From assembly GCA_018417955.1 (NCBI GenBank), contig JACTVC010000036.1:124001-188000 (forward strand): 64,000 nucleotides of DNA, given 5' to 3'. The position numbers were made by a program, and so were the translations under genes. The notes beneath the pieces are model-generated. The model worked only from the letters and a program-made list of their open reading frames with translations, was not told the origin of the DNA and searched no databases. The DNA comes from Laccaria trichodermophora (taxonomy: Eukaryota > Basidiomycota > Agaricomycetes > Agaricales > Hydnangiaceae). Below are positions 8,650 to 53,983 of this stretch, in pieces. Each line of letters starts with the position of its first letter. The first letter of the stretch is position 1.

Positions 8650-9088
8650 TGTGAGCGCTACTTGACGTAGGAATCACTCAGGTAGTGGGACAGTCGTTGG
8701 AGCACCTAGCGAACGCGACGTACAGAGGTGTGAAGACTCACCTAGTTGATCCAAACGGAATCGTTGTGCGCTCGGAGTCGTGGAACGTGACCGTTCAGCG
8801 TACCCGTGTTCCGATCTCCACGGACAGTCCCTGTGGAGATTGCGTAAACGATTCCTCTTGATGCCTACTTGCGATTTCTCAGAGTTCAGAGCAAAGCCGT
8901 TGGTAGGGCCTTTGTATCCGAACGATACGAGATTTGCGAGTGGTGGTAAAAAGAGATACTATTGCCTCATGTACTACATGAGGTATAAGTACAATGCTTA
9001 TGTAAAGCATGACATAATACAAAGTAAGTAGGCATAAAGGGTAGACTTCGGGGAGCGGAAAGGATATAGGAGCAGGATCTTACTTGCA
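8650..9088 (-). repeat. Probable 5' LTR of gypsy-1
   Basis: Starts (plus orientation) with TGTGAG directly after the primer-binding site and ends near TTGCA at 9088, giving TG...CA ends. The inner boundary is firm by comparison with gypsy-2. The outer boundary is inferred from where copia coding sequence begins; CTACA at 9095 is an alternative. The partner LTR is outside the window, so length (about 439 bp) is provisional. Confidence 0.55.
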
Positions 9089-10821
9089 TACTACAGCCGT
9101 GGCCGTCACTGACTATGAGTCAGATGATAGCATGCCTGACCTTCAGGCTGTGTCGGACTCCGATTCAGATGACGAGCCTGAGAGTGGCGCCGTTACTGAT
9201 AGCGACTGGTTCTCTGAGGCGGCGGATGAAGGGGCGAGCGTTGAAGGGTGTTCTGAAGGGAGTAACTGGGATTTTGACGATTTATTCGAAGATCCCGCGC
9301 CAGCCGCTGATGCGCCGTTTGTGCTGGAGGACTCTGGCACCCCTGAACATGTTGCAGCATTTGTCAGTGCTGATAGCAACGTCGCCAATGCTTCACGCAC
9401 TGAGGTTTATGACTCCGGTTGCACGTCTCACATTTCGCCATACCGAGATGATCTCAAAAATTTTGTTGAGATTCCGCCGAAGTCTTTCCGAGCTGCCAAC
9501 AAGCAAGATTTTCAGGCTGTTGGCAAGGGCGAGATGGTGATTGACATACCTAATGGTGCCGACATCTCGCAGCTGCGCCTTACGGAAGTTCTCTATTCCC
9601 CTGAGGTTGGATACACCCTCGTGTCTGTTGGACGACTCGACAACAATGGTTTTACAGCCACTTTTGGAGGTGGCAAGTGCGTTGTTCAAGATCCTGATGC
9701 GGAGGAACTAGGTTCCATCCCCAAGTCGAGCCGAGGCCTGTATAAAGTTGTACATGAGGGGGAATCTGCAAACACAGCGGAGGAAGCTATTACCTTGGAG
9801 CAGCTCCATCGTCGAATGGGCCACATCTCCCCAGGCATCGCAAAGAAACTTGTTACCCAGGGCTTCGTGACGGGTGTTCGTCTGGTCTCTACGGCTGACG
9901 CAGAAATTTTTTGCGAGTCGTGTATCTACGCTAAAGCTACGAGGAAGCCTGTTTCCAAGGCTCGCGAGGGTGAGCGCGCCAAGAAATTTGGCGAAGAGGT
10001 CCATTCAGACCTCTGGGGACCTGCTCCTGTTCAGACGAAAGGCGGTCGACGTTACTACATTACATTCGTTGATGACTACACTCGGCTTACCCACCTTTAT
10101 CTTCTTCGCTCGAAGGATGAGGCTTTTGAGGCCTACAAGGAGTTCGAGGCTTGGTCCACAAACCAGCTCGAAGCGCCAGTTCGTGTTCTTCACTCAGATC
10201 GAGGGGGAGAATACCTAGGGAAAGAATTCACGGTTCATTTGAAGTCAAAGGGCACGAAGCAAAAACTTACTGTCCATCATACCCCTCAACACAATGGTGT
10301 TGCAGAATGGTGTAACCGCACTATCGTCAAACACATTCGAGCCCTCTTGCACGCTAGTGGCCTTCCCAAGTATTTGTGGGGAGAAGCGGCATGTCACGTT
10401 GTTTGGTTGATGAATCGAACGTTGACGAAGGCTGTCGATGGCAAAACACCTTACAAAGCGGCCCTTGGCGTGAAGCCGGATCTGAGCAGTGTGCGTGAAT
10501 GGGGTGATAAGTGTTGGATCCGCGTGGAAAAGGGCAATAAGCTGGGCGGCCGTGTCCGTGAAGGTTGTTGGGTTGGCGTAGACGACGAGAGCAAGGGTTG
10601 CCGGGTTTATTGGCTGGATACAAAGACGGTGACAGTTGAGCGCAATGTCTATTTTGACCCTACTAGCGCGTCAGTTGATCGTCTCGAGGGGGAAGACTGG
10701 CAGTTTGTCGAAACGACAACTGACGGACTCACCTCTACATCACTATCCCCTTCCCCTGCCGTTTTGACACCACCTAGTCAACCCAAACCATCCCACAAAC
10801 CCGAAACTCCTGCTGAAAGTG
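9089..10821 (+). pseudogene. Ty1/copia polyprotein, 5' part: protease and integrase (gag missing)
   Basis: First half of an interrupted copia polyprotein. After an acidic Ser/Asp/Glu-rich stretch comes the aspartic protease motif Y-D-S-G (near 9407), then the GAG-pre-integrase H-H-C-C finger (L-H-R-R-M-G-H ... F-C-E-S-C), and an integrase core with H-S-D-L-W-G-P, L-H-S-D-R-G-G-E-Y and N-G-V-A-E-W, so all three catalytic acidic residues are present. Gag and its zinc knuckle are absent because gypsy-1 sits immediately upstream. The frame continues a few codons into the KDZ terminal repeat and stops at 10853. The second half resumes at 30105 in the same frame: one GAAAGTG copy joins the two into 3543 nt (1181 codons), so copia was intact here when KDZ inserted. 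Confidence 0.9.
10815..10821. repeat. KDZ target-site duplication, left copy (GAAAGTG)
   Basis: GAAAGTG directly precedes the KDZ terminus (CACTTCAGTCACCC) and is repeated at 30105-30111 after the other terminus. The first base of each copy is a codon start of the copia frame, so precise removal of the element plus one copy restores the frame. Confidence 0.88.
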
Positions 10822-11169
10822 CACTTCAGTCACCCATTTTAGGGTACCTGTGAGGTATATGAATTCTTTGATTTAGGGGACCTCCATGGTACCCATTCCA
10901 AGGGTGGTATATGAGCACATACCAATACCATGGTACCATGGTATGGAAAAGCCATACCAAATCCCACTCATACCAATACCATGTTACCATACCATACCAT
11001 GTCATCTCATACCATACCAAATGATCTCATACCATACCATACCATCATACCAAAGCTGTCACAGGGTGTCTGGGGTCCTTTTCCAAAATATATAAATTAT
11101 TTCTGCAGGCTGCAATACTGGTCCATTGGGTGGCATTTTTTGTGGGGTGGTTCTCCAGGATTTTCCTGA
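10822..11169 (+). repeat. KDZ left terminal inverted repeat
   Basis: Begins CACTTCAGTCACCC and matches the reverse complement of 29757-30104 over 348 bp without a difference that I can see. Similarity continues inward at roughly 90% to about 11290 and faintly to 11380. It contains several TACCATGGTA-type palindromes, the same word as the internal arrays. Confidence 0.9.
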
Positions 11170-12325
11170 GATATTAAGGTAAAAATTGAGGCTAGATAGT
11201 CCAAACCATCCAGTGAAAATCAGTTCAAATGGGCTTTATCCCAGCTTTTTCCATGCATCAAAAGCCATTTAATGATACATATCTTTCCCAGTCCTTCAAT
11301 TAGAACAATATTCATCACAAATAAAACAATACTGCATCCATTGTGATGATGTGGTCTTTGAAGACATTTTGTGTACTATCAGTCCTGAACAATGTGTGAT
11401 ACCACACATTGCAAAAGCCTGGACTTGAACTAAATTATTATCCAACAGCCTAGGGTGAAATATGCACTTCAACTAATCAACTACTTTAAGTACCACTCCA
11501 CATATAATTCCTTTCAAAAGCATGCCATTTGGATTTGAAAAGTGCAAAGCTGTTGCTGTCAAAGAAGTATGTTTAAATATTTACCCAGTGTTTTGTAATC
11601 CTGGTCAGCTTACTTACTGTGCTGCAACCTAGGGGACCAGGACCCAACACCATATATAGAGCCAAGTGGCTGAACAATTAATTGTTCAGTTATCTGCCTT
11701 TTGGTGTAATGGCTAAGTGTTGGTTTTCTGGCCCTCTTACATGTTTATGCAGCAAAGTCAGAATTCACTCTGACCTGAAACCTTAACTGAACTATTGTGT
11801 GTATATTAAACACTCCAGACTTCATGGATTGAAGACTTACACATTAGAACTATGTGTTAATAGCTAGATTAAAGTTATCCAATTGTCATACCATATAAGA
11901 AAGAGATCACCTCACAATTCGTTTCATGGGTCATACCACCTGTCAGACAATCGCCCTACATAGTGTTCTATTTACCATATAGTGTTGTCATGTTTTATGT
12001 CCCAATTTTTGGGTTTGCCGAGTATATGAGAAGTAGATCTAAATTTTGTTAACCCCAAGATTGCTAAGAAATACTGAGCTTTCATTGAGATATTTGGTGA
12101 GCTAAGAAACAAGCCTAGCTCAACAGAGTCATGAGTCAGTCACCTGCTAAATGTGAATGAAAACATAATACTTTTTTACTTCTTTCTTTATAATGTATAT
12201 GATTTTATCTACCTCCTATCTATATGGACATTCCCAGAATGTCAAATTGTGCTCTATATAAGTGAAAACAAAAAAGAATGAACTTAAAAATGCAGCAACA
12301 CTGAGTATGGTATCTACAGCACACA
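11170..12325. other. AT-rich non-coding subterminal region of KDZ element
   Basis: The first 100-200 bp are the decayed inner part of the terminal repeat. The rest is AT-rich with no convincing ORF, splice pattern or RNA gene. Confidence 0.5.
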
Positions 12326-12339
12326 ATGCCAGGTATAGA

Positions 12340-12840
12340 GCCATCCCATAGTCATACCCATACCATTCTCATACCATGGTTATACCATACCAAGGTCATA
12401 CCATATAGGTATGACATAGCCAAATCATACCATACCATACCAAGGTATGACCAAGTTATACCATACCATACCATAGGTATGACCAAGTTATACCATACCA
12501 TGGTATGACATAGCCATACCATACCATGGTATGACCAAGTTATACCATACCATGGTATGACCAAGTTATACCATACCATGGTATGACATAGCCATACCAT
12601 ACCATGGTATGACCAAGTTATACCATACCATGGTATGACATAGCCATACCATACCATGGTATGACCAAGTTATACCATACCATGGTATGACCAAGTTATA
12701 CCATACCATACCATAGGTATGACCAAGTTATACCATACCATGGTATGACATAGCCATACCATACCATGGTATGACCAAGTTATACCATACCATGGTATGA
12801 CCAAGTTATACCATACCATAGGTATAACTTTGTATGGATG
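12340..12840 (+). repeat. 26-bp palindrome array, left (KDZ subterminal)
   Basis: About 17 units of roughly 26 bp built on CATACCATGGTATG, separated by two spacer words, CCAAGTTAT and CATAGCC. The core is a perfect palindrome, so both strands carry it. The counterpart at 28657-29186 is inverted relative to this one. Likely transposase-binding or replication-related sites; that role is inferred from position. Confidence 0.75.
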
Positions 12841-13206
12841 GTATTACAAAGTCATACCATGGTATGGTATGGTCTAACTTACCATGGCACATGGTAAGGT
12901 ATCTCTGGTATGGCCTCAGACCTGAATCCAACTTGTATTGATCTACAAGTGTCAGAACTACAGGATATGATACTAACAACAAAGTGCATCCAGTGACCAG
13001 CAAAGGAGAGTAATCAGTACCATGAAACTCTATCTACTAGACAGAGAAATCGTGAGGCCCCCACTTCACCCTGGAAACATCCACTACGAAGTCTGCAAAT
13101 GTAATGTTACCAGTAAGTAGTAAAACGTCTCAAGTATAAGTCCCACCAACACCCACACCTCACACCAGTCACTCAAAACTCCTCCTCCTCCTCTGTTGAA
13201 GACCCT
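12841..13206. other. Junction between left array and cargo gene A
   Basis: Residual TACCATGG words to about 12905, then unremarkable sequence turning GC-richer toward gene A. It includes the presumed 3' UTR of gene A. An alternative last frame (to 13173, acidic E-rich end) exists if one more intron is used. Confidence 0.35.
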
Positions 13207-16200
13207 TCAGAATCCACCGCCCTCACTAGGGTGTCGTCGACGTAACACGCCACCATCTGTGAATCGCTGTTCATCGCCAATCTCCGAATGCCCGCGTCCA
13301 ACCCTGCGAGGGCCATACCCAGTGAACCCTTCGTTTCCTTGGCCATAGTAGCCATTAGAGTCATACGGACGAGCATGTCCTCGAAATTGGGGGCGGAGGC
13401 CACGGCCTCTTCCACCAAAGTCAGATGGTGCATACTGTCGTGGATGGTGGCCATGATGTTGGTTATTTGAGAACTGAGGTGGTGGTCGGTGATAGTGATC
13501 CTGCATGGAAAAGGAGGGATCAAACCTATTCGCCTGATACTCGTCCATGAAAGCATTGTCGTACCCATCTTCGTCGTACATATTCACGTCAGTGTCGAAG
13601 TTCATGTGATTTGGACCTTTGGTATCGCTCCAAGGAATGACTGCTCGCTGACGAGAGCTACCAGCACGGTCTGAACCAGCCTCGTTATGAGAATTCTGCT
13701 GCTGGGACCTCCCATGTGAATCGTGGCCTTGCTCCAGCCCACGCTCAATGTCTGGGCCCTGGGACATGTTCCGGGGATGCGGCCCATCTTGACTCTCCCA
13801 ACCACCGTCTCTGAATCCACCTTGGATCTCGCGCACTGGCCGTGAACCCAAATCAACCCCTTGGCCTACCAACTCCTGGCGACGGACACGTTTGGCTGGA
13901 GGCGAATGAATGGGGGAGATAACAGGAGCGCGAGAGCCGTCATGAGATTCCTCATCAGAAGACGGTACTTTTTCCACCTCGACCCCTGCTCCTGAAAGCT
14001 TGGGCTCCTCACGTAATTTGCGCTTCTGCCGGCCAACTTGTGTGGAGGTCGTGGCTGCCTTCTTCTTTTTGTTTACTTTCAAGGTGTTCTCATCGATCAT
14101 CAGGCTACGTGCTCTGGCACGGAGTAGTGGAGGGCAGTCAGCGCCTCCATCATTTTGACGAGCAGCATTCTCCACCTCAGGCGTGCAGTTTTTGACACGG
14201 GCGAGGACCACAAGCGCCCCTGATTCGGATACACCAGTAACAATTGGTATGTCCAAGAAATCCTCACTCCCCTCCACCAAGTCCATGTAATCCAAACCCC
14301 AATCCTTTAGAACATGCCTCATGAACATAACAAGTAAAACTCACCATCTGACCACGAGACAATTTGAGGGGCCAGCTTGTTCGTCTCGTCCTTGCTAATC
14401 ATGTACGTGAAAATCAGATTGATTCCATTTGAAGATATGTCGGTAATCGACCATCCCTTTGCCCCAGGGATGGGTTCATTGCAAGGCCAACGTTTAAGAA
14501 CCATCTTAGCGTCACGGCAGTGGGTGAAAAAGTTGGCCCACAACGCTGACGCCGACGCTATCTCAGGACCTGCACATTCCGCTGCCAACTAATCAGCACC
14601 TAATGCACAACAGCAAGAACAATGCGACGTACCAATCCCAAACCTCATTAAGTAAGGTACACATCTTCGCGAGCGATCCCTAGGTGATTCCGTGGATCGG
14701 CAAAGCCAATAAGAGGCAGGAACGGCCGTGATGGGGAGGTTTAGATCTGGGTCGGCAGAGCTTGCCACACCTTTGGAGAACTTCGATTTTTTGGGCAGAC
14801 TTTTCGATGCCTTCCTAGGCGCCGCGGGATTCCCAATCCGAGGCTCGGGCACTGCACTTGAGCCTTTCGAGCCTTTGGGATCTGTGTCGAAGTTCGAGAT
14901 ATCAACACCCAGGACTTGCGACATGTCCACCAATTCAGGTATAATCATGTTAGAATCCATCCCCCTACATAGTTGAAGGTCAATACAAGTTTGAATATGA
15001 TGATACTTATATGATATAACTTACCGAAGGAGAGTCGTCAAAAGATGAAGCGTCTTCTTAACGTCCGCTTGACAATGCTCGATGACGCGTTGCAGCTTGT
15101 CATTGCCCGTGACAATGGTAGCGGCCTGGTTTGCCACAGGATCTCGAGGAATGATGATACCAATCATGTCGACGTCCGCCCTTCCCAACGCTGTAGCCTA
15201 CAAACAATGATATTAAAGAAGGTCGGCCGCCATGAAGGGTGCAAACTCACAAGATCTTGGACTTGCTTCAGCGCCGTTTTCGTCATTTTAAATGCCTGCC
15301 GCTCCGTCTCTGACTTGCTCTTTGCCAACTCGTCGAGCATATTCTGCTGGAAATCCTCCAGGTCTTCCCCTGACAAGGCGTCGGTGAGCTGCTTGTACAT
15401 CACCGCAGCCTGGGCTGACCACGAGCCTAGACTGGCACCTAAAACCAATCAATGAAACCTGATACCCTGGACCAAAGATAACAGACATACTTGGTTGGGG
15501 ATTGTAAGTCTGAATACGCAAGTACATCTGCCATATGTCCCACCAGGATGGCTGACGAGCAAGAGAAACATTGAAGCCCCCTTTGCGTAGGACAGACTCA
15601 GGTGTACGCCCCATGTCCTTGCAGTAGGCCACGATAGTGTCTGACAGCTCCTTGACCTTATCTAATTCACTAGCTGAGTAACGGCCACGCTTTTCTTTCC
15701 CAGCAGGAGCTGCACGTTTCTTCCCCAGTGCCTTTGCACTAGCAACCGGACGTGCCCGACGACTTTGGGTTGCACCATCCTCGCCTGATCCGTCACTGTC
15801 TCCCGAAGTCTGTGGAGGTGGCTTACTTGCCACCAAACGACGTAAAATTCGCGTAAACTCCGGGCCTTCATCGCCCGACTCGTCATTGCCTGCTGAAGTT
15901 CTTTGTGCAGGACGTTTTCCCTTCACCAAACGACGTCGAACTTGGTGGTTCTTCTCCTCCCTGGATCCGTCATCCTGTGGTGTTGCTTTCTTGGGCGCCT
16001 TTTTGCTCTTCGTTCGAAGATGCAGATCCTGCTCATCAGCTTCCTTCATTAACCTTTCGTCATCAGCCTCCTCCTCCTCAGTGTTCATCTCGTCGTGTCC
16101 AATTCCCCGATTCTTCTGAGCATGTTCACGTTGCTTCGTTTTTTCCTTCGTGGACTCACTATAGTCACTGGGCGTCAAGGATGACTCTGTCCTGTACCCA

Positions 16201-18566
16201 GGACGTTGGTGATCGATCTGCAAGTCGGCCTCTGGTTCTGATTTGTCGTCGGGTATGCACTGCGCCTGAGGCTGTTGATTGCCATGGATGATGCGGGCAG
16301 GCTGGCGTCTCCAATGGCTCGACTCTGCGTCCTGGCCACCTTCTGCTTCGTGCCCTGCCTCTGTTTCGTGTCCTTCGTCGCCTGTCTCTGCTTCGTCGCC
16401 TGACCTTGCTTCATCGCCCAACTCTGCAGCGTCACCTGACTCAGCTTCGCACCCTGACTCTGGTTGTGCGCTAGACTGTGCCAACTTTGCCGCCAAGCGT
16501 TTGGCCCTATGCCTGGCCAATATCTCCGCTTCCTCCCACCATGCCTCCACCTCGCCAAGACAGTTCGTCGCAGGGGGGGGATCGGTGGTGTAGCCTTCGG
16601 GGAGGGCCTCCCATCGTTCACTCGCCCGATTGTGCCAGCAAGTATACTTGGTATACTGGTGGGCAGGGTGAGCATCGGTGGCTATCCAAATTCTCGAACG
16701 ATATCCGATATAACCCATCCCTTCCATGACTCTGCCAATACGGCAGAAGTAAACCGTAACTGGATGCGGAAGAGATGACGGCGGAGGGAGGGGCATCTTA
16801 TCATCTGATGGCATCGTCGAATCGAAATCCTCATCACTGGACGCCGGGTCAGGGGTCTTGGGTTCACGATAGGCCAATGTCGGATCAACAAGAAGGAGCG
16901 AAGGTACGTCGGGCCTGTTGCGTAACGTGTAGAGGCCACGCGAACGAGGCTCAGCCTGAGGGGGGCCAGGAATGGGTGAAGAGGGAAAAATACCAGACGA
17001 ATCATTTCTGTAGCGTAGTCAAAAACCACCCTTACTCTAATGAATCTAAGATACGTACGTCGGAATGAGAGTTGATTTGATAGAAAACGTGCCCTCCATT
17101 GGCGGAGAAACTCTGGCAGATGCAGCACTACAAGTCATGCACGGTAAGCGAGATAGGGAAATTCGTTATAAACAACGACTCACGTCAACGTGGCCTGGAC
17201 AGACAACGGCAGGCCGAAGCCAATCGAACCAGACATTCCCCTGAGGCAGAATATCAATATCGTCTTCGACAGAGGTCCTTATCAGCGCTCACCTGCCCCC
17301 CGTACTGTCTGCGCGGCGTGCAGGCACGAAGTTCTCCAAGTAAGATGGCCGCTTCTTCGGATCTCTGTTAAAGAACACGTCTTCAGCCGCTAGGGTCAAA
17401 TTGTCCATGACTCTGGAACGTTACAGTCAGTCGTACACCCGATTGATGTCCAAGTATAAGCAACCAACCGATTGGCATGGGATACAAGTTCCTGGGTAGG
17501 TGTTGCATCTGGATCCGCAATATTCTCCACCCTGTATAGTTGTTAGAGATATATTGAAGGAGTAGAAACAGCGAACAAGGAGTTTACGCTGGTGACACCC
17601 GAGTGAAACGACAAGGAGTCAAATTTCGCTCTGGTGACGACTCGCCGCGACAAAGAGTCAAACGGAGAGCCCTGAGAAAGGGAGAGGTACGCACACTTGC
17701 TTGAGGCCGTACATGCGGAATGACTTTGTCTGACTGAGCTTGACCAGAGCCAAGTGGGTCTCAGTCCCAGATGTCGCCCCACTCCCTCCTGCGACCACAT
17801 CAGTGGGGTCACTGTCGACGAAGGGGTTTAACCCGTCATCAACGTTCGTGTTCTGTTGACTGGTGTCAACCGACTGATCAATCCCCAGATTGACCGCGGA
17901 GATGGGGACAACATCAATAGGACGTCCCAGAGTCTGACTGGGTTCAGTGTCGGCAAGGGCCTCGTGGCCGTTGTCCATAAACCTAAAATTCACAATGAGA
18001 CTCACCCCACCCACGATAAATCGCTACCAAGACCTCACCTGATTTTGTCCGCCATTGGCGCAGACTTTTCAGGTTCAGACTCACTCGGTAAAGCTTTCTT
18101 GACCGTTTTGGATTTATTTCTGTACGCAAAGGTAAGTTCGTTTGTTTACCTTTAGCGGAATACCTACTTTTTGGCCCGACTAGGGCGAGAACGAGCCGGA
18201 GTAGGAGCATCGTCGACGGTGTTGTTGACTACGGCGTCCGCGGCCTTCCTGACTCGGGTACGAGAGCCAGTGGCCTGAGTGGGCGCAGTGTTGCCCACGA
18301 CGTTGCCCACAGTATCAGCCTCTGTAACACTGAAATTACGTTGAGGTGAAAGGCCTCACTACCAAGCGTAAAAGCTTACCTATCGTTGAGTGTACTTTGT
18401 GCCACCTTGGCCGCTCCCTTCTGCAAATTTCTTTTTTAACAACGTGGCAAATTGTGGCAGAGGAGTCTCTCACCTTGGTGGAAGCCTTGCCTCTACCCAC
18501 GGGAGGTAGAGGCACAACAGGAGGCACCACGGGCTTACGAGTGCGAAGTTGACGAGGTTCCGACAT
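13207..18566 (-). CDS. KDZ cargo gene A: large hypothetical nuclear-type protein, 15-exon model
   Basis: Function not recognised. Model exons (minus): 18566-18474, 18420-18380, 18329-18168, 18119-18039, 17982-17695, 17531-17469, 17412-17293, 17240-17184, 17127-17059, 17007-15491, 15438-15251, 15197-15025, 14964-14633, 14581-14345, 14219-13207. All introns are GT-AG and the sum is 4434 nt (1477 residues), in frame throughout. The protein starts M-S-E-P-R-Q-L-R-T-R-K and has a Trp/Tyr-rich block around 16700-16550, an acidic G-D-E-A-rich degenerate repeat (about 16430-16310), Lys/Arg-rich nuclear-localisation-like stretches, a helical middle region and a Gln/Arg/Gly-rich tail. It faces away from gene B across a shared intergenic region. 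The last intron (14344-14220) is the least certain. I believe similar multicopy proteins exist in Agaricomycete genomes but could not check. Confidence 0.6.
17609..17662 (-). promoter_or_regulatory. 15-bp word pair inside gene A intron 5
   Basis: Two copies of the word TTTGACTCCTTGTCG (minus strand; second copy has TTT for CCT) at 17623-17609 and 17662-17648. They lie in the intron between 17694 and 17532 and point in the direction of gene A transcription. Confidence 0.6.
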
Positions 18567-19710
18567 TTTTGAGGTTAGTTTTGGTGTTGAGTTTTGTTCA
18601 AAATTCGAGGGCTTTTTCTGAATAGGATGGGTCAGAGAGGCGTCCACTGCGTTTCTAATATATATTCATCTTTTTACTTACGTGAGGACAGGAACAAGCT
18701 AACCCGAAGGGGTTTGTTGTTGCATGTTAACCGGGTCAGCGTAAATCTGGCGCTTTGCCCCAAAAGAACTGTCTACAGTTCTTTTACAATGTAATGACGT
18801 GACCCAAGTTCCTAATCTCTGGGTCAGTACTTAGCAATTAGGAGGTTTTTGACATACTACCAAAGCCATAGATTATAATATAGCTGGTCAGCGAAACCAA
18901 GGCACGTTTGGCGAAGCCAACACGCGCAGAGATGGAAGGCGACGATTGGAGTTCTGAAATACATATATCCCCGATGAGCGCGCATGGGTCGCTTGTGGAG
19001 GCCAGTTTTCATGACTTACCCTGCCAAAAGAGAGAGACGAAGGAGCCCGGGCGGCATCTGGAAACTTCAACGGCGTGTAGAAAGGCGCCTCTGAGCCAGG
19101 CCAAGGGGCAACAACACTGCATAGTGTCCAAGCTATTGTTGGCTTGATTACGATGGCCAGCCATCTGAGTGGGCGCAGCGTTGATAAACTGTCAGGAGTA
19201 AGTTCGGGTTTGACGTTGTAAGATGGGAGCAATACGTGCCTTCAGTCAATCGATTTGATGGTACGCCTTGAAGGAATTGCTTGCCGAAATACCAGCACTG
19301 AGTAACGATCAGGATGGGGGTCGCCAACTGGTTTGGATTTTGGGGGACGAAGTGACACGGCTATCGCCTCCGAAGGATACACGACCCTTCCCGTGGTGCG
19401 CAGAAACATGTTCAGAATCTGGACGCATTCCTTTGGCGTGTAGTACTACAACTCCAGGTGAGAGAAGCGGGGTGAATGAAAAGGGAGAAGATTACCTCAC
19501 GTGGGCGAGGGCAAAGTCGGCAGGAATCAGACATTTCTGGCTTGTTGCGACAAAAAAGATGGTTTATACTCGGGGCAAGCGAAAGAGGTCCCGGAGTAAC
19601 GACCACGAACTAATCTGACAAGGATGAAAGAGAGGGGACAGGAACACGCCTCCAGTCTGTAAGATGACTATGAGCAAGGTGTTCAACCCGGAACTTTGAG
19701 AGGATAGCAG

Positions 19711-19780
19711 CGACACAGAGTCAAACCGCCAGGCCGACAATGAGTCAAAGCCTTCGCAACGAGGACGACAAGGAGTCAAA
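19711..19780 (-). promoter_or_regulatory. Word triad toward gene A (1)
   Basis: Copies at 19711-19725, 19735-19749 and 19766-19780, spaced 24 and 31 bp. On the plus strand they read CGACAAGGAGTCAAA with one-base variants in the first two. Confidence 0.7.
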
Positions 19781-19967
19781 TCCAGGTGCGCCAGAAGGAA
19801 GACAAACAGAGCGAATTATAATACTCACGTATGATAGAGGCGCCGGGATAAGGAACAACGGCGGGCATGGGTTTGACAAGAATGAAAGATGTAGCAAGGG
19901 AACAGCGTCCGATCTGTTGGAAAACAATGAGGATTGTCTTCAACCAGGAACATTGAGATAATAGCGG

Positions 19968-20045
19968 CGACAAGGAGTCAAACCGCCGGAATGAAAGGCT
20001 GACAAGGAGTCAAAGCCTTCGCAACAAGGACGACAAAGAGTCTAG
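19968..20045 (-). promoter_or_regulatory. Word triad toward gene A (2)
   Basis: Copies at 19968-19982, 20000-20014 and a degenerate third at 20031-20045, spaced 32 and 31 bp. Flanks match triad 1, showing a local duplication. Confidence 0.7.
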
Positions 20046-20378
20046 TCCAGGTGCGCCAGAAGGAAGAGAAAGGGAGGGTTTTGAAGTACTCACTTGAGAA
20101 CTAGCCACCCGTCCACGATGAAGAAAGGACCGCGAAGGAACCAAGACAAGCGTCGGAGGGAGTGCGGAAAGACGGAGTTACCGTGGCTTTGAACGGATGA
20201 TCAAGTCAACACGGGATCAGATCTCAGATTGGATAAGATCAATTAGTAAATAAAGGTTCGTGATCAACGTTCAACTCTGGCTTGAATACTTACCTCCTTG
20301 TTGTCCCCCCATCGCAGGCGATGTTCAGGTGAGCTATTCCCAATAAATGTGGTGGATTGGAAGATTCCATCCCCGGGG

Positions 20379-20461
20379 TTTGACTCTTTGTCGTCCCGTG
20401 GAGGACGGACCTTGACTCCATGTCGGTCTGCCATGCTTAGGTCGAGCTTGACTCTTTGTCG
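20379..20461 (+). promoter_or_regulatory. Word triad toward gene B (1)
   Basis: Copies of T/CTTGACTCYNTGTCG at 20379-20393, 20411-20425 and 20447-20461, spaced 32 and 36 bp, all on the plus strand. Confidence 0.7.
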
Positions 20462-21554
20462 CTCGCCCAGTTGTTCCAATCATTCACATAGGGTACTAGC
20501 GCTGACGTGTTAATCGATTCTTTTGGGTCTCGCGGTTACTTTGCACCTGGCATCACCGCGCCAATAGCAGATACCCTCAAGGCGCACGCTGCAGGTCCCA
20601 GCCTCTTCCACTTAACCAAGGCGGCTTATTCAAGGTGCGTGTCCCGTTGTACTTCACCAAGACCTCAGCGCTGATCCCGTTCTTCGTAGGATCCTTGCAC
20701 AACAAGCATCCCCGCGAGTCTTCGAGGTATCCACCGCATTATGAACGACCTACTACGGTTCAAGCGCCATCAATCCCCCTAGTGCCATCCGTCGTTCAGA
20801 TCTACGCTGCCAACGGTGGTGCTGTTGACACCAGCCAAACCCAACGGTGTCCACTGTCCCACGAAGATCCTCACCCCCAGCTGGTCAATTCTCTCGTCTC
20901 CCTCCCACACCCTCAAACCCGCCTAATATCCTCGATTGGAGCCTAGAACGGCGTATCACCCCTCTACATCCTCCGCAACATTCTCATACATGCATCAACA
21001 TCAGCGGGGATATCTTGTCGGCCAGCGTGGATGTGCGACTCGTTCATGACACCCGTAATAGTGTGACGAATACGGATCTTGACTACCGCACGTTCGACGT
21101 TGACAATCTCCAAGTTCGCGACTACGAATTTGATAAGATTTGGCCCACCCCCAAGGGTAGCAAGTACTCTTCGCTCGATACGGCATCCAGGAGAGCGCTC
21201 CCCAGTTCACTATTCGCGTGTTGTTACCCCAGTTCTGGGGAGGCTGTCCTACGGTGTCTATGTGTTTCATACGTGGGGATTCACAAGTTGACATTACGTA
21301 GTGTGTTTTTCCGTACTTTCGTCTTACATTCATGTTTCGTAGGTACAATGTAGGTACGACCGTACTCGCCATTTTGAGTTGTCACTTATTGACGCGTCTG
21401 ATGTTCACGTGATACCTGTGAACAACGTGATTGGGGTTGATCAGCGGTGCTCCTACTTCCGCGCTCAACGTTCAACTCTCCATATTCCTCTGACAATAGG
21501 TCGCGTTCAGCCTGTGAGTATTCCGTTGCATCTTCGTGATCTTTCTTTCGGGAA

Positions 21555-21638
21555 CTTGACTCCTTGTCGTTCCCTGGGATTGTGTGGATTTTGACTCCTT
21601 GTCGATCCACCCTCCCTCCTGAGTTTGACTCCTTGTCG
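21555..21638 (+). promoter_or_regulatory. Word triad toward gene B (2)
   Basis: Copies at 21555-21569, 21590-21604 and 21624-21638, spaced 35 and 34 bp; two are exact TTTGACTCCTTGTCG. Confidence 0.72.
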
Positions 21639-21967
21639 CTCAGTTTCGGTTCGCTTGGCCCCATACTCCATTTACTACATACTAATCTGTTGCTTCGTAG
21701 GCGTTGGCGTGCATCCGTCATTGTTTGCCCTTTGGAACCATAACTTCCTCGATCGGTGAGTATCTCATCTTGCCTTATATTCTCTTACTGATCAGCCGAT
21801 CCCTTGGGCTTCAGCTTCTTCCTCATTCCTTGAACCCTACAATCTGCCACTCTTTGGTGCTTCTACGGTGTCCCTCTCGCGTCTGCCTACCCACTCTAGT
21901 GTTGTATCGACTCGATTCTGATTGGTGAGTGGTCGTCCACTGGTTTCGGCCCTGTTCGAGCGCGGAA

Positions 21968-22052
21968 TTTGACTCCTTGTCGTTCCGTTGGAGGACGCAT
22001 ATCTTGACTCCTTGTCGATGTACGTCCTCTCCTCGTGTTTGACTCTTTGTCG
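21968..22052 (+). promoter_or_regulatory. Word triad toward gene B (3), just upstream of ATG
   Basis: Copies at 21968-21982, 22003-22017 and 22038-22052, each spaced 35 bp. The last ends 56 bp before the gene B start codon, fitting a role in transcription or in the 5' UTR. Confidence 0.72.
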
Positions 22053-22108
22053 CATGAGGTTCATATAACAATCGGGCTTATGATTCAATTCTGACTGTAT
22101 TGCTAGCC

Positions 22109-24720
22109 ATGTCCGATACAACGACTCAAGACTCGAAACCGTACTACAAGGAATACACGCGTGATTCGGACAGGGAATTCCTCGCGACGGATGCCTACTG
22201 TTGGGATGTGATAGATCGCAAGGTTCGGACGAAGGAGGTTGTGAGTGAGGCGGGGATCAACACTTTCATCGAACATCCAGACAAGCTCGACCCCGCCTCC
22301 TGGTGGGTTATCACTACTCCGAATGCGGGTTACGTCCCCACTGCTCCCATCGGCATTCGACATATTCAAGCGAGGGCAGATGGCCGCTTTGGACTAGACG
22401 ACCGGACCCTCCACCCCCAGATGTACGTCAAAGGATTCGAGTACATTTGCTGCATCCCCCAACGCGATCAGTCTCGCCACATGTTGTGGTGGACACCCTC
22501 CCTCGCTGATTGCCCTATGATTCCCAATTCGCCGTTCTCGATCTCCATTTGCGTACTCAAGCCGGAACTCCTGAACGGGTTCAAGGAGCTTCGTGACAAG
22601 TATGTTGGTCTAATCGCAAAACGAGAGGGACGCGACCGCTCCCCTCTTGCGGGTCTTTTGGTCACCACAATGTGTCAAGCCCTTGATAGGCTTCGATCGT
22701 TCGGGATGACATACAAAGAAATCCTACTCGCCGTAGCAGAATTCCAGAGAGCTGTCCTGGACATCCACGCATGGATCGGTTTCGTAGACGTCTATCAACC
22801 TCGTCTGTTTCCTGGACCCGATGGCGTGGTGAAGTACGATGCCAATCAGGATTTGATGGGTGCTTTGACGGAAAAGGTTCAGGTTGCCCAACAACTGCAG
22901 GCCATGGGGATCCCTGTATGGCTAATCCGCCCTTCGTTTCGAATCCTCCCCACCATGAATGTCAACATCCCATCTTTCCAGCAACATTGTAAGATGATCG
23001 TTCTTGACCATTTCAAGGATCGTGAGGGCAATTTAGACCCATACCCTGTTCTGGCGACTGGTCCGCCCTCGTCCGAACTTTACAGGTGGACCCAACGTAT
23101 AGGCTGCGCAATTATGGACCTTCAAAATGTCACTGCAATCGGTCGACAGGACTTTATCGAGGGGAAAGCTAGTATTGGGGGAGTTCGAGATGACTGTAAG
23201 TTTTCAGCTTGTAATGATGCAAACCAATTCACAAATCTCAATGCAGATTCTATTCCTGTCCCGTCCGCTTCTGCGTTGTCGTCCGCAGGGAAAGTTGGCC
23301 CATCTGGTTGGTGCTTTCGTATTTCTTTCTATGTAACCTTGGAGTCTAATATCCACTTTTTCTTTCAGCTTATTTGTTACCATCAAGTGTCGGACAACAA
23401 CTCTCATCATCCTCGAAAGGTGGGGCTCGCGATTCTAACCTTAGCATGGGACAACAACACTCATCATCTTCGAAAGGTGGGTCTCGCTCGCTATTCTAAC
23501 CTTAGCATGTGTAGTAATTGTGAATTCTGGCAGTTCTGCTCTCTGTGGCCTCTCACCAGCTGTCCCGACGCTCCTCGGTACCATCCAACCCACCAGTCAT
23601 GCCCAACCCAACACGCCATGGTGGTCCTGGACCTTCGAAGCGCCCCCGCATAGCTGAGGCGAACGTAGCTGATGTCACTTCTCCTTTCATGCCTGTCCCC
23701 GTTCCCACGTGGGCCAATGCTTTACGAAACTTAGATACCGATCGTCGTCGTTTGAGACGTCAGCCGGGGGATGTGGTGAACATCGGGTACAAATACCCGA
23801 AACCTGATATTTTCTTGAACTCCAAGAATCGGGCTTTGTACACCGCTACTTGGCTTGCAATCCGGGCTCATCACGCATACACACTGGCAACGGGAACCGA
23901 GCTACCGCCACCTATCACTGCCCAGCAATGGCGGAATTTCCTCATGCGAATCATACCTTTCTTGGACGCCGAAGACATCGATTATGCAGCAGATCTTGAA
24001 GATACCACCTCCGTACCGTTGCCTCCCCAGCCTGCCTCGAAAGGGAAACAGAAAAAGGTTGGTGCCTCGTCCCGAAAGAAGCATGTCAAGAAATCGAATT
24101 CGTACCTGGACGAGATCCCCTTGGCAAACACCGTGATCGATCGGGTGGTCTTTTATGATACGACCATCCAGTTGGGCACAACACAGGAGCTTGAGCAGGC
24201 GTTGACGCCAGAGGTCACTCAGGAGATTCTCTGGGAACTCTGCCACATGAGTTTTCGGTTTGAACTCTTGAGCCTGGATGCTCTCCTTGCGGACACATTG
24301 TACCATGGCCGGTGGGGTGTTACAGATGCAGAAGCGGCGAGGTCTCGCTCCGAGCAACTTCTCAGGGTTTTCCCCATGTCGGGTGATGTGCTCGGATCTT
24401 TTATGATCAACGAAATCCCCAATCGCGACTTGGGTTTGACATCATTTGATTTGGAAGAACGGAACCGTCATCTTGTGGAGCTCGGGAGATTGATGTGTCC
24501 TTGGAAGGGCTGCCCAGATTCAATCAAGGATGCTAGCCAGCTACCGATAGAGGCACATGTTCAGGCACTGGAAGAAGCGTGTACGAGCTTCTACTGCCAG
24601 TCTTTCTTCGACAACTTCGGTCGCGCTCCCATCATCCCTTGTCGCCTTCCTCCTCGTTCTCTGGCACGCCCGGAGCCGGTGACCTTTGCAGATACTGTCA
24701 TGACCGCCCAGCCCTTATAA
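22109..24720 (+). CDS. KDZ cargo gene B: hypothetical protein, 4-exon model (813 aa)
   Basis: Function not recognised. Exons 22109-23195, 23246-23305, 23369-23476 and 23534-24720 sum to 2442 nt in frame. The start M-S-D-T-T-T-Q is the first ATG after the last word triad. Exon 1 is a compact, Trp-rich globular region (residues about 1-360) containing G-I-P-V-W-L-I-R-P. A Ser-rich linker with an imperfect duplication (S-S-V-G-Q-Q-L-S-S-S-S-K-G-G, then M-G-Q-Q-H-S-S-S-S-K) follows. The C-terminal exon has an N-terminal P-S-K-R-P-R stretch, a basic K-G-K-Q-K-K...R-K-K-H-V-K-K segment and a helical region. Donor GT-TGG after exon 2 is weak. No intact known enzymatic motif, no signal peptide and no TET/JBP iron-binding pattern is visible. 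Divergent from gene A and 190 bp upstream of the transposase in the same direction. Confidence 0.65.
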
Positions 24721-24913
24721 TCTTTGGTACAATCATAGCAATTTCTCGGACTTTGTTGTCATGTCGGCCTCGTTGTTGTTCTTGCTATTACCACATGACA
24801 TGTAATATCATCTACCTCGTGTTCGCGTTTGCACCCGGTGGTTTGGGGGGTTAGTTGTGTACGTGGGTAAGACCTTCTTTCCTTTCCCCTTGCTTGTCGT
24901 GCTTGTGAACTCT

Positions 24914-27900
24914 ATGGCTTTCAACAAGAGCCGTTACTTGGGCAAGGCTGGGATTGGTATTGGGTCTCCATCATTGAAGAAGAAGTCCTCAGGTCATGCT
25001 TGGGCATCTACTAGTGAATCTAATGTGTCCCGTCGTCCTTATGGGTTGCCAGGCATTCAGATCTTACCTAGGCAAGACTTGACCACTTCTCTTGGGTCAT
25101 TTGTTCAAATTCCAATGCCCACCAGGGCTGATTTGCATGATGCTGCTGCTTCTGCTGCTGCTGCTGCTGAGGATGATTTATCTGAGTCCTCGGGTGGTGA
25201 CTCTGAGGATTCTGGTGATGTTTCTGCCAGTGATGTCCTTCACCCTTTGGTATTTCCTGCAGAGCAAGCTTCCCCAAAGAAGAAGTTAGACAAAAAGTTG
25301 GCCTTGTGGAGGAACTGGGCTCTGAAACTGATCCCAGAACTATTGGATCCTTATCTGGGCTTGTTAAGGGAGTCTGAGAATTTGAAAAACATAGATAGAA
25401 GGTTACCTCATTGTTCTTGTGATGGGACTGGGCATAAAATGAGTGTTATTGCTGTGTTTTTTGAAAGTGAGTGGCTTTTTGGTTAAGATATCTACTTGTA
25501 ATAACTGATCCCTTCATCCATCTTAGAACTTGTTTCTGTGGAAGTTTGTTCTTGCTCTGCTGTTTTTCAGCTCTTGGCCATGGGTTTGTTTCCTGCCTCA
25601 CCCCTTCGACCAACATTAGCTGTGGATTTGAATATGCTTGACTTTGTTAATGAGCTTTTTGTTCGTTCGCCTCCAAACACTACTGCATGGTGTGACTCAC
25701 TTGAGGCATTTCTGGGTTCTCGTACATATAAGCTTGAGAGTAGAGATGCCATAAGACGTCGCTTTGGAAATGCACTACAGTGGTATGGCAATCTCATTGC
25801 CCAGAAAGAACTTTTGATATCTGGGGTTATAAATGAGGGTCGCCTAAAATACCTTGCAGAGGCTGGGTCTTCACTTGAATCAGATGACATAGATAGGGGA
25901 GACCAAAACTATGAACCTCCCCCTTCTTCTAGTCCTACTTCAGTGGCAGATGATGCTAGTGATGATTCTCATGAGAGTCAGAATACTACAAACACTGATT
26001 CTGATCTTCCTCGTCCAAGTGAATACTTGCGGAAGCGATGTCCTCTCTGTTTTGGTGGGGATAATCCACATGACCCAAGTTTTATGTAAGTTGTTTTGAA
26101 ATTGGTCAAAAATATGTTCTGATGACTGGTACATTTCAAGGGTGGATGTCATTGTATGCATTGATGCTTGTTTTACTCACAAGAGAAGAAACCCTGCAAA
26201 AGGTGGGGCAAAGGGACCTGAAAATCTGCATCCTGATACAGTATTTGTGCCTGAGAAATATGTAATGGAGATGAAGGCTTTAGTTGAGACAGTTCGACCA
26301 GAGAAGTCAAAAGGAAAAGAAAAAGCTAATGTACCATCTGATGAACAACCTGTTGAAGACTCATATGAACCTGGCATGAAGGTCCCTGTCTCAGCTTTGG
26401 AGGGATGTCTGGCCTCCTTTATTGCAGCAGATGAGAGAAGAACTAAAGCCAGCACGCAGTTCTTTGCAGATACAGGTCTTATGGCCATGCTGTGTCGTCA
26501 TGACCATGTTCTCTGGCTAGTAAACATGACTACTGCTGGAGAACGCCAATACTATGCTCTGGTATTGATAAAAATGCTATTTATGAATTTGCCTTTATCA
26601 ATGACAGTTGGAATTTTGTATGACATTGGATGCCAGTTGGAGAGAAGTTGCCAAATCTGGGGGTTTCTGGAAGAATTCATGGCAAGAATCCTTTTTGCAC
26701 TTGCAGTTTTTCATGCATATGGTCACCAGTGGCCCTGCCAGCTTGTTTATCACCCTCGTAAATGTGAAGGGTTTGGCCTCTCTGATGGTGAGGGTTGTGA
26801 ACGTTTCTGGAGTGCTATCAAGTTATTAATCCCTTCAATGCGTGTGGCAGGGGTAAGTGTCCATCTCATATATATGTGAAGATAATCTGATAATTGAGCC
26901 AAATAGTTCTATCATCGGCTGTTTACTATTGATACTCAGGTCAAGCATCTGGATAAAAAGTCTTTCAATATGATGGGAAAATGGCTTCAATGCAAATGGT
27001 TGACTTGCTTGGAAAGAAAAATTGAGGCTGAGGAAATTCTCAATGAACTGGGGTTTGAAATATCTTTGCTTCAAAATGAATGGAAGCAGCAAGTGGCTGC
27101 ACAGACCAAGCCCTTGGCACGACAATCAAAGAATATTGCAAATATTGCAATTAAGGAAATTTTGGCATTATATACTGCAAAGAAAAGTTTTGTAATGGAG
27201 TTGGGAGGGCTTGATGACCAGCTAATTTCAGGGGTCTATGGGGATGATATGTCAGTGGAGGATGTTTTGGCTGCACGTAAAGCAATCATGAAAAAGCAAG
27301 GTGTGATTGATGCAAATATAAAGACAAAGAAGAAAAGGCTGGGGGTGAAAGATAAGGAAGATTTGAAAAAGTTGATGGGCAATAAGTTTCTTCAGTTGAA
27401 ACTTAATGCCAGGGCTCTTAAGCAAAGACTCAGAGATCGTTTAAGAAATCGTAAATTTGAATTGGAAAGGTTAGAGAGAGCATATCGACAAACAACTTCC
27501 AATGGTAAGGAGTTTTCTGACACAGACCACTTGCTCTTTATTGACTTCTATTTTAATAGAGACTAAATTACATTCACATGTCCAGAAACAAGTCAATAGG
27601 CAGCAACCAACAATTGCCAGATTGGCAAAGAAGTACAATGACATGTGCTATGATATGACAAAGCAAATCCAGGAGGGAAAGGCCCCTGCTAATTCTATAG
27701 CTCCTGTGCCAATCAATCGAGAGCATTTATTTGCTCTGGATGTGGATGATGACATTTGGCAGGATGTTGGATTAGATGAGAATGAAAGTGAGGTTATACC
27801 TGGCTGGCTTGGGAATGAGAAGATTCGTGAAGGAATCAAAGCAATGCTGACAACCAAGAGATGTGCAGAAGAGATGGCTAGAATCAAACAAGAGCGAACA

Positions 27901-28440
27901 GCCCTGCAGGAGTGGTCAAGGGAAGAGTGGGAAGCTATCAATATGGCCATTCTTATGTGTGGTAAGCTTGTTTTTATTGCTATTTGGGTGTATCTAACTG
28001 TACTGTTCTTTATTACAGAGGATGAAGATATTGAGCATCAGTTGGTTATGAGACAGTCAAGACATCTGAGTTTGTGTGCACAGTGGAGGGAACAGGTGTC
28101 TCTGATTCCTGGCACATATCCAATGCTGAAAGGATGGGGACCTAATGTCAAAGATCTGGAGACTGCATTGAAGGATTTGTCCCAAGAATATGTTGATGAA
28201 GAGGGAAGTGATGATGAACAATTGAATTGCACATATAATGTTGAAGAAGCAGACAACAACAATGTTATTGAAGAGACAGAATCCATGGCAGTATCAGATG
28301 CATTTAGGGTATCAGATAATGGGCTGGCCTTTGGGAGATGGGAGAGTGAGGATTTGTGGGAGGATCTGGAAGATGAAGATGAAGATATCTTGGATGTTGG
28401 AACATCTCGAAAGAGGTCAAGGCAGAAGTATTATAGGTAG
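24914..28440 (+). CDS. KDZ-family transposase (Kyakuja-Dileera-Zisupton), 6 exons, 1070 aa
   Basis: DDE-type transposase expected to cut and join the 10822-30104 element. Exons 24914-25466, 25527-26085, 26141-26852, 26940-27504, 27560-27961, 28019-28440; all introns GT-AG, total 3213 nt, in frame. An Ala/Ser/acidic N-terminus is followed by a cysteine-cluster domain typical of KDZ proteins (P-H-C-S-C ... V-C-S-C ... L-F-P-A-S-P), then C-P-L-C-F-G. The catalytic core shows I-D-A-C-F-T (first Asp, about residue 377), Y-D-I-G-C-Q (about 531) and G-L-S-D-G-E-G-C-E-R-F-W-S (Glu, about 588). A Lys/Glu-rich coiled-coil-like region and a very acidic tail follow. No disabling mutation seen, so the copy may be active. 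More AT-rich than genes A and B. Confidence 0.9.
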
Positions 28441-28656
28441 ATTTGGTGGGAAATAAGTTGGAATGAAGTTTTCATGGGATGGTGCAATTTGTAGCTTGGT
28501 GATGTTTGTAAATATCAATAACATTCAATTAGCTGCCTGGTAGGAAATGATAAGTACAGTTGGTAGTTAGTTCATAGAATTGTAGAATGGTACAATTATG
28601 AATGGATATACTAGTTGGCAGGAAGGTTTAAGTTAGAGATAGTTCTGGTATGAGAG
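28441..28656. other. 3' flank of KDZ transposase
   Basis: AT-rich non-coding sequence between the transposase stop and the right palindrome array; presumably 3' UTR and terminator. No distinct signal identified. Confidence 0.3.
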
Positions 28657-29186
28657 TGCAATACCATGGTATGAGATTGCAATACCATGGTATGGTATGA
28701 GATTGCAATACCATGGTATGGTATGAGATTGCAATACCATGGTATGGTATGAGATTGCAATACCATGGTATGGTATGAGATTGCAATACCATGGTATGGT
28801 ATGAGATTGCAATACCATGGTATGGTATGAGATTGCAATACCATGGTATGGTATGAGATTGCAATACCATGGTATGGTATGAGATTGCAATACCATGGTA
28901 TGGTATGAGATTGCAATACCATGGTATGGTATGAGATTGCAATACCATGGTATGGTATGAGATTGCAATACCATGGTATGGTATGAGATTGCAATACCAT
29001 GGTATGGTATGAGATTGCAATACCATGGTATGGTATGAGATTGCAATACCATGGTATGGTATGAGATTTCAATACCATGGTATGGTATGAGATTGCAATA
29101 CCATGGTATGGTATGAGATTTCAATACCATGGTATGGTATGAGATTGCAATACCATGGTATGGTATGAGAGTGCAATACCATGGTA
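28657..29186 (-). repeat. 26-bp palindrome array, right (KDZ subterminal)
   Basis: About 20 nearly perfect tandem 26-bp units, ATACCATGGTATGGTAT plus spacer GAGATTGCA. Read on the minus strand the units resemble the left array (CATACCATACCATGGTAT), so the arrays are mirror images. The array is open in three minus frames, which makes spurious ORFs of up to 204 codons. Confidence 0.85.
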
Positions 29187-29756
29187 TAATATTTTGATAG
29201 TAAAGACTCTCAGGACAACAATACATGATTTCATCTTCATTTGACAAGACTTTGGATTGGATAGATTCACTCAGCTTTAATGGACTGAACCAAATATGTT
29301 GTCAAAGAAGACTTTGGCCAAAGACTCAGGACAACAATATTTGATTCCATCATATGTAGTTTTGAAGAAAATTGAGATTATATGGTGGTGTTGTTGGCCA
29401 TACTATATGTGTATGCTATCTAAGTGGGCAGGACTGTCTGATTGGCCCTACTGGGCAAAATACATTTAACCTATAATTGAAAGCATTCATGTTAATGGCT
29501 TTTTAGGAATGGAAAAACTTGGAAGAAAACTGATTTGAACTGATTTTCAAAAGGTTGGAGTGGACTATCTGGCCTCCACTTGTAGTTGTAATTCTTAGCA
29601 AAAACCTGAAGAACCTTTCCACTTTTCTTGGCTTCTCAAAGACCACTTCATCACAATGGGGCTTTGGATGCATGGGAAAAGCTGGGGTAAAGCCCATTTG
29701 AACTGATTTTCACTGGATGGTTTGTACTATCTGGCCTCAATTTCTACCTTAATATC
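29187..29756. other. Right non-coding subterminal region of KDZ element
   Basis: AT-rich, no ORF. A short direct duplication (AAAGACTC...AGGACAACAATA at 29200-29225 and 29320-29340) is visible. From about 29600 it is the decayed inner part of the terminal repeat. Confidence 0.45.
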
Positions 29757-30104
29757 TCAGGAAAATCCTGGAGAACCACCCCACAAAAAATGCCACCCAA
29801 TGGACCAGTATTGCAGCCTGCAGAAATAATTTATATATTTTGGAAAAGGACCCCAGACACCCTGTGACAGCTTTGGTATGATGGTATGGTATGGTATGAG
29901 ATCATTTGGTATGGTATGAGATGACATGGTATGGTATGGTAACATGGTATTGGTATGAGTGGGATTTGGTATGGCTTTTCCATACCATGGTACCATGGTA
30001 TTGGTATGTGCTCATATACCACCCTTGGAATGGGTACCATGGAGGTCCCCTAAATCAAAGAATTCATATACCTCACAGGTACCCTAAAATGGGTGACTGA
30101 AGTG
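29757..30104 (-). repeat. KDZ right terminal inverted repeat
   Basis: Reverse complement of 10822-11169 with no difference seen. Ends GGGTGACTGAAGTG, followed by the duplicated target GAAAGTG. Confidence 0.9.
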
Positions 30105-30111
30105 GAAAGTG
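30105..30111. repeat. KDZ target-site duplication, right copy (GAAAGTG)
   Basis: Direct repeat of 10815-10821, immediately after the KDZ terminus. Confidence 0.88.
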
Positions 30112-53617: not shown

Positions 53618-53983
53618 TAAAGGATTGACATGACTTTAAATATTGCTATTGCCACATCAGCAGTTTCTCACATCATGCCCAAGTTGGCTTTCAGGTAGAG
53701 GAGGCTATTCATGTTGATATCTACTCAGTACATGGTCAACTTACAACATGACCTGACTTGAAGACACCTCCAAGGATGGATCAGCCAATCATCAAAAGCC
53801 AAGTTGGTCATGATGTCAAAAACTGGTGATGTTATGTCAATCCTTCAGTGATACCCCCACATGAATGTATCAAAGTTGACTATGTTTCATACAGGCCAGT
53901 AGCTCTAAATGTGAAAGCAGACAGGATGAAAGGTAACTTGGTCATGATGTCAAAAGACTGATGATGTCATGTCAATTTTTTAG
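53618..53983. other. Spacer of the giant palindrome
   Basis: 366 bp between the arms, with residual inverted similarity (AAGTTGG...CATCATG words), so it is an older, diverged continuation of the palindrome rather than unrelated DNA. Confidence 0.7.

Follow-up and report, generated by a model that had tools for sequence, protein, structure and literature searches.

Hairpin arrays in predicted introns of a Kyakuja-type transposon of Laccaria trichodermophora: candidate docking sites for a cognate RNA-binding protein

In a 64-kb stretch of the Laccaria trichodermophora genome (hereafter the window; the genome is 59.0 Mb in 77 contigs), a 15-bp word recurs in clusters between two divergent genes of a Kyakuja-type (KDZ) DNA transposon, gene A on the minus strand and gene B on the plus strand. 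What is this word, and why does it change strand with the genes? We searched the window for TTTGACTCCTTGTCG, allowing up to 3 mismatches. There are 21 matches, compared with 2.3 ± 1.6 in 100 shuffled sequences (largest 8); 17 of them fall at 17609-22052 and the remaining four (5090, 7886, 27826 and 44469) are isolated. The original prediction, made from the letters of this DNA, had counted 17 copies in a pair and five triads. A looser search reveals one further, more diverged copy (TAAACTCCTTGTT; minus strand, 17574), which completes the supposed pair as a triad and brings the true count to 18 copies in six triads (T1 to T6, Table 1). The mismatch search recovered the strands and spacings claimed for the clustered copies, as well as the closeness of the last triad to gene B, with the final word ending at 22052 and the ATG lying at 22109.

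Every copy is flanked by inverted repeats, whose sequence differs from copy to copy. The 5' and 3' flanks of the same copy pair at 65 of 68 positions next to the word. Exchanging flanks between the 17 copies lowers this to 37.2 ± 3.4, and the observed figure was not reached in any of 100,000 shuffles. Because the copies' own flanks pair far beyond swapped flanks, the word is, as read from the sequence, the core or tip of an RNA hairpin. In the family of the window (class F1 below), this hairpin has a variable outer stem of about 5-8 bp, a 2-nt 5' bulge (U, then mostly U), an inner stem GAC/GUC and a pentaloop UCNNU. The first and last letters of the 15-mer form a pair (mostly U-G, C-G or U-A), the conserved unit being a 13-nt core. 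In the third hairpin of the T1 type, AAC/GUU replaces GAC/GUC, i.e. a compensated change. Minimum-energy folds contain three hairpins in each of the six window triads, with z-scores of -2.1 to -4.2 relative to shuffles. No Rfam match was found in window 13000-28600 at E-values up to 1. RNA hairpins that bind proteins typically show this pattern, a conserved bulge, inner stem and loop carried by stems that are free to change.

The 13-nt core has 144 exact copies in the genome, compared with one for the reversed pattern. Triads of the exact pattern number 90, in 22 clusters including the window, and the reversed control gives none; these counts rest on the exact pattern, so degenerate arrays could add to them. 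A genome search with exon 1 of gene B returned 60 matches, i.e. 29 close rows and 31 rows at 23-32% identity. After removal of 8 second fragments of the same copy, the close rows represent 21 copies, 19 of which have a listed triad within 3.5 kb. The word is thus not spread without relation to genes A and B, a distribution that the original prediction had named as incompatible with it. No listed triad lies near the other two close gene B matches (C34:2350673 and C21:436859), nor near gene A matches such as C34:1978029. Outside the clusters, isolated 13-mers have just 0-2 of the 6 stem pairs (6 cases out of 6, C14:304519 being left out). Hairpins were sampled from 14 stretches (13 clusters) and the window, i.e. 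14 of the 22 clusters. Several of the loci used, including distant ones described below, are near-copies (e.g. L010/L014/L015, L020/L022/L023, and the distant L038/L044 and L033/L040), so the counts are not independent. With near-copies counted, 75 of 79 F1 arrays have exactly three hairpins. One locus (L021:4775-5375) carries seven triads; the additional one lies in the leader towards gene A and is probably a duplication. The hairpins of L010 (C1:1-9990) and L014 (C6:1-9000) are identical and both loci are at contig starts; these copies are perhaps near chromosome ends.

A gapless alignment of 146 distinct hairpins has 84.7% of its 1606 cells paired versus 64.4% after shuffling, and 418 cells are changed on both sides from the commonest pair versus 149 after shuffling. 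When the partners are slid by 1-3 columns as a control, 29.5-51.5% of the cells are paired. This set excludes 8 of 154 rows, dropped after inspection (register artefacts or lookalikes beside real hairpins, weak stems); with all 154 rows kept, 579 of 616 first-four pairs are formed against 377 ± 8.5, the same kind of result. Two hairpins without a good stem were retained (L016:2854-2882 and L023:2900-2928); each looks like two half-hairpins joined by a deletion, the halves corresponding to adjacent hairpins in other copies. Between orthologous hairpins, 732 of 854 cells are paired, the maximum of 300 shuffles being 713.

Wobble pairs distinguish the two strands, since the complement of a G-U pair is an A-C mismatch. 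At stem pairs 2-5 of the F1 hairpins, we counted 38 sense G-U wobbles versus 4 antisense, with 96.9 and 69.7, respectively, in shuffles of the same letters. Judging by this imbalance, it is the transcript-strand RNA that seems to be under selection. The wobbles of the distant families described below (27 sense, 0 antisense) were not used, because the rule that selects those hairpins accepts G-U and not A-C and is therefore biased; the F1 hairpins were picked without a stem rule.

A GTRNGY splice donor is found on the triad's own strand 33-51 nt before the first core in all six window triads. Between 22 and 62 nt upstream, this motif is present for 6 of 6 triads versus 18.8% of random windows. 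Because a donor lies upstream of each of them, all six triads look intronic; they are predicted to lie in introns of the two divergent genes, two in the gene A leader, three in the gene B leader and one within coding sequence. The original prediction had placed the pair in an intron of gene A, and the predicted coding intron does hold T1, but an intronic position is not particular to T1. A donor (GTRNGH) precedes 66 of the 75 complete F1 triads, and 49 are followed by a branch-like CTRAY and YAG, as judged by simple consensus patterns rather than a trained splice model, the acceptors of T2-T4 being placed by eye. The 47 triads with both a donor and CTRAY..YAG, including T1, T5 and T6, imply introns of 159-193 nt. 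The other predicted introns of gene A (n = 13) are 48-60 nt long in 10 cases and 76, 125 and 135 nt in the rest. Moreover, two proteins of Laccaria bicolor (P0006 and P0007) continue across the site of the T1 intron, matching the prediction.

The 31 distant gene B matches extend the comparison to other transposon families of the same genome. At least 22 of these relatives have a KDZ transposase match within 12 kb, and gene B thus appears to accompany this transposon group regularly. For such a gene, the term cargo in the original prediction is imprecise. We took the leaders of 16 of the 31 distant copies, blind to their content; at least 11 of the 16 have a KDZ match within 12 kb. An assumption-free word count in these leaders gave TTGACTTYGCGTC in groups. 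An agnostic scan, which accepts any 3-bp inner stem with a 1-2-nt bulge, a 4-5-nt loop and an outer stem if repeated within 20-50 nt, gave 34 clustered hits in 12 of the 16 leaders (53 kb), and the inner stem is GAC in all of them. Neither 20 shuffles nor 59 kb of unrelated loci gave any hit in the same scan. With a looser rule in which the inner stem is fixed (GAC, GAT or AAC), 29 arrays were found in 13 of the 16 leaders, often on both strands and in divergent order. For this rule, 20 shuffle sets average 0.05 arrays (at most 1), and there is none in the 59 kb of other loci or in the rest of the window. A GTRNGY donor is present upstream of 17 of the 29 distant arrays versus 15.1% of random windows.

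We assigned the hairpins by hand to four classes. Class F1, the window family, has the 2-nt bulge and the loop UCNNU. Class F2 (L030, L031, L032, L034, L035, L039 and L045) also has a 2-nt bulge, and its loop is mostly UUYGC. Class F3 (L033, L040, L042 and L043) mostly has a 1-nt bulge A, with loops such as UUUNA or of 4 nt. Class F4 (L036, L038 and L044) has a 1-nt bulge A or U, a stem end that is often ACC/GGU and a variable loop. In a maximum-likelihood tree of 17 gene B sequences (6 F1 copies, 8 distant copies out of the 16 leaders and 3 database sequences), each hairpin class falls in one well-supported clade, F3 and F4 together; some branches of this tree are long and its deep order was not relied on. 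In this sequence comparison, hairpin class follows the gene B tree for the 8 distant loci and the 6 F1 copies.

As the best explanation, these arrays may be docking sites, in predicted introns, for a cognate and perhaps element-encoded RNA-binding protein that would control the splicing of the unspliced transcripts. We give this reading a probability of roughly 40%. The bulge, the GAC/GUC inner stem and the loop would be recognised by the protein, and the outer stem would serve as a scaffold. Members of a family share loop and bulge, whereas co-resident families differ in them, and in the loci compared these features track the gene B tree; the protein reading them therefore probably comes with the element, genes B and A being the candidates. 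The arrays would be present only in unspliced RNA, since splicing would remove them, and would begin about 30-50 nt after the 5' splice site. As the simplest effect, binding would help or block the splicing of the leader introns; an effect on the export or retention of unspliced RNA would come next. An effect on splicing would set the protein output of genes A and B, and perhaps of the transposase, for example as negative feedback when copy number rises. A wider and more doubtful version of this proposal is an RNA address system of Kyakuja elements, in which a co-evolving element protein would sense its own unspliced RNA through arrays of three or four hairpins and set splicing and transposition, the family-specific loop and bulge avoiding cross-regulation.

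Several observations weigh against docking of an element-encoded protein, or against the evidence on which it is built. In F1, 9 of the 11 pairs carry some both-sided change, a figure that shuffling also yields (97 of 500 shuffles reach it); likewise, the 30 of 126 columns that change on both sides in orthologous hairpins lie within the shuffled range (mean 21.8, maximum 31). The agnostic scan also gave 4 clustered hits elsewhere in the window, with other inner stems. Among the distant arrays, 12 of 29 have no GTRNGY donor at the expected place; the leaders of L037 and L041 have no array, and L031 has just two hairpins, 75 nt apart. Furthermore, the pentaloop of class F4 varies within one array, which fits recognition of the loop poorly. 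Agreement between hairpin class and the gene B tree would equally result from plain descent. Since gene B was the probe by which the families were found, every family has it by construction, and this lends no support to gene B as the reader. Finally, gene B has no recognisable RNA-binding domain at Pfam cut-offs, and a fold search with a model of predicted local distance difference test (pLDDT) 63.8 gave no clear match.

The hairpins could instead be bound by a host RNA-binding or splicing factor, which would give efficient splicing of the leader introns or enhanced expression (intron-mediated enhancement). The GAC/GUC inner stem and the 5' bulge are common to all families, as one host factor would need, and the array introns are about three times as long as most other gene A introns, where help might be needed. 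A single host factor would not readily account for a loop and bulge that differ by transposon family within one genome, and nothing comparable was found in the sequence examined outside element loci, either at the six isolated 13-mers or in the 59 kb of other loci; we consider a host reader unlikely, although it deserves to be taken seriously. The excised introns with three hairpins might also be the product itself, as stable small RNAs or RNA-protein particles acting in trans or, by analogy with Rev/RRE, as a signal for retention in the nucleus or export from it. This would suit arrays that fill about half of their introns and the near-constant number of three hairpins, like a defined particle, but the conserved single-stranded stretches are the loops only, and we consider such a product improbable.

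Hairpins that merely shorten the effective distance in long introns, their sequence being immaterial, would explain why the triads fold more strongly than shuffles. However, the 13-nt core is kept while the stems change, the reverse of what pure folding needs, and this explanation has little in its favour. It is less probable still that the word is a DNA site, bound by the transposase or a transcription factor or forming a cruciform, with inverted flanks by chance. Many kinds of transposons carry repeated transposase sites, and this element has 26-bp subterminal repeats of its own; yet the orientation of the word follows transcription, the F1 wobbles favour the transcript strand, and the arrays come after splice donors and not at the element ends. 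Hairpins in transposon introns also recall silencing triggers, or the precursors from which microRNA-like or Dicer-made small RNAs arise. Such precursors are long imperfect duplexes with a conserved stem, whereas here the helices are short (a 3-bp inner stem and about 5-8 bp) and bulged, with a variable stem and a conserved loop, and a small-RNA origin is hardly credible.

Docking of a cognate protein on intron hairpins, the reading that we prefer, has parallels among known systems. In phage and viral hairpin operators (the MS2 and PP7 coat-protein hairpins, lambda boxB/N, and TAR/Tat and Rev/RRE of human immunodeficiency virus), a protein of the same element reads a short hairpin. The likeness lies in the short hairpin with a conserved loop or bulge and a freer stem; the difference is that no virus is involved here, that the arrays are in predicted spliceosomal introns and that the loop and bulge sequences differ. 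Regulated or alternative splicing determines the output of two other DNA transposons, the P element and En/Spm, in which we know of no structured RNA-site array. Yeast Rpl22p is described as autoregulating RPL22B through a stem-loop in an intron of this host gene (PMC4838235). Here too, the hairpins are predicted to lie in introns, but in RPL22B the gene's own protein changes splicing, whereas here the binder is only proposed; moreover, RPL22B has one element in the intron of a host gene, while the present transposons would have 3-4 hairpins in each of several introns, shared between two divergent genes and with family-specific loops. Introner-like elements and symmetrical stwintrons (PMC8469720) are structured families of fungal spliceosomal introns in which whole introns are alike across many genes; the triads of the exact pattern differ in being found within one transposon group, as their counts and proximity to gene B indicate.

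In the literature searched, which largely excluded subscription journals, we found no paper linking Kyakuja or KDZ transposons with intron hairpins. The RNA elements therefore look new, while intron hairpins read by proteins are already known as such. The suggestion of an undescribed RNA-level feature of a transposon is supported in this form, for covarying hairpins after splice donors of a Kyakuja-type element with neither an Rfam nor a literature match, while the control that the original prediction named is so far a proposal. Noticed first in raw sequence, the pattern then gained support from covariation and from the related but differently looped arrays that distant elements of this genome carry. 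If the proposal is true, the arrays would be, as far as the literature searched shows, the first structured RNA code described in DNA-transposon introns that is specific to the family. It would offer a handle on the self-limitation of large multi-gene DNA transposons and on the role of the common but nameless gene B protein, as well as candidate orthogonal pairs of RNA hairpins and proteins.

The features of the element are collected in Table 1. Its terminal inverted arms (10807-11266 and 29660-30119) are 97% alike. The transposase matches PF18758 (E = 1.8e-56; 191.7 bits for a cut-off of 26.6) and scores 26.6 bits against the CxC1 domain, below the cut-off of 26.9. In the sections of PMC12730594 available to us, Kyakuja elements have a KDZ transposase, a 7-bp target-site duplication and 5'-CA..TG-3' ends; we use the term Kyakuja-type because the KDZ domain, the 7-bp GAAAGTG duplication and the CA..TG termini agree with that description, so that the label rests on these three features. 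Those sections do not describe leader introns or hairpins, and the two L. bicolor Kyakuja families presented there are without terminal inverted repeats, unlike the present element. The transposon sits inside a Copia element, whose halves are at 9084-10853 and 30093-31913.

Table 1. Transposon, genes and hairpin triads in the window
Feature	Position	Strand	Description
Kyakuja-type (KDZ) DNA transposon	10822..30104	.	19,283 bp; termini CACTTCAG...CTGAAGTG; long terminal inverted repeats
Target-site duplication GAAAGTG (7 bp), left copy	10815..10821	.	
Target-site duplication GAAAGTG (7 bp), right copy	30105..30111	.	
Gene A	13207..18566	-	15 predicted exons, ~1442 aa (home-made splice model)
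Triad T1	17566..17669	-	Gene A coding intron, predicted at 17694-17532 (163 nt)
Triad T2	19704..19787	-	Gene A leader; donor GTGAGT at 19828, candidate acceptor at 19657 (by eye)
Triad T3	19961..20052	-	Gene A leader; donor GTGAGT at 20093, candidate acceptor at 19914 (by eye)
Triad T4	20372..20468	+	Gene B leader; donor GTGAGC at 20329, candidate acceptor at 20491 (by eye)
Triad T5	21548..21645	+	Gene B leader; predicted intron 21514-21700 (187 nt)
Triad T6	21961..22059	+	Gene B leader; predicted intron 21925-22106 (182 nt), ending 2 nt before the gene B ATG
Gene B	22109..24720	+	813-826 aa by model; splicing around 23307-23597 unsure
KDZ transposase gene	24914..28440	+	6 predicted exons, 1082 aa (splice model)

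No Pfam family was found for gene A (two open reading frames searched) or for gene B (at the cut-off). The homologues of gene A among the matches listed are three, P0006-P0008, all from L. bicolor, and those of gene B are found in Laccaria, Hypsizygus, Pisolithus (many proteins) and Obba. At the 3' end of gene A (13207-13540), two open frames overlap, one RGG-rich (arginine-glycine-glycine) and the other like P0006 of L. bicolor, and the C-terminal frame is unsure. The RGG-like tail was not used as evidence, as it lies in one of these two frames and P0006 supports the other. The gap between gene B and the transposase ATG is only 193 bp (24720-24914), and the L. bicolor gene model P0002 fuses both genes; the transposase may use the gene B leader via alternative splicing.

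A 26-bp palindromic repeat (ATACCATACCATGGTATGACCAAGTT and relatives) forms subterminal arrays at 12432-12825 and 28666-29187, inverted at the two ends of the element; from their sequence and placement, these repeats look like putative transposase binding sites. Elsewhere in the window, an open reading frame of 2465 aa with a chromodomain, of a Gypsy-type retroelement, lies at 862-8259. Finally, mirror-image tandem arrays are present at 51624-55977, with 122-bp units at 51624-52221 and 55380-55977 and 61/62-bp units at 52815-53366 and 54235-54786; judging by their arrangement, they look like the long terminal inverted repeats of another element.

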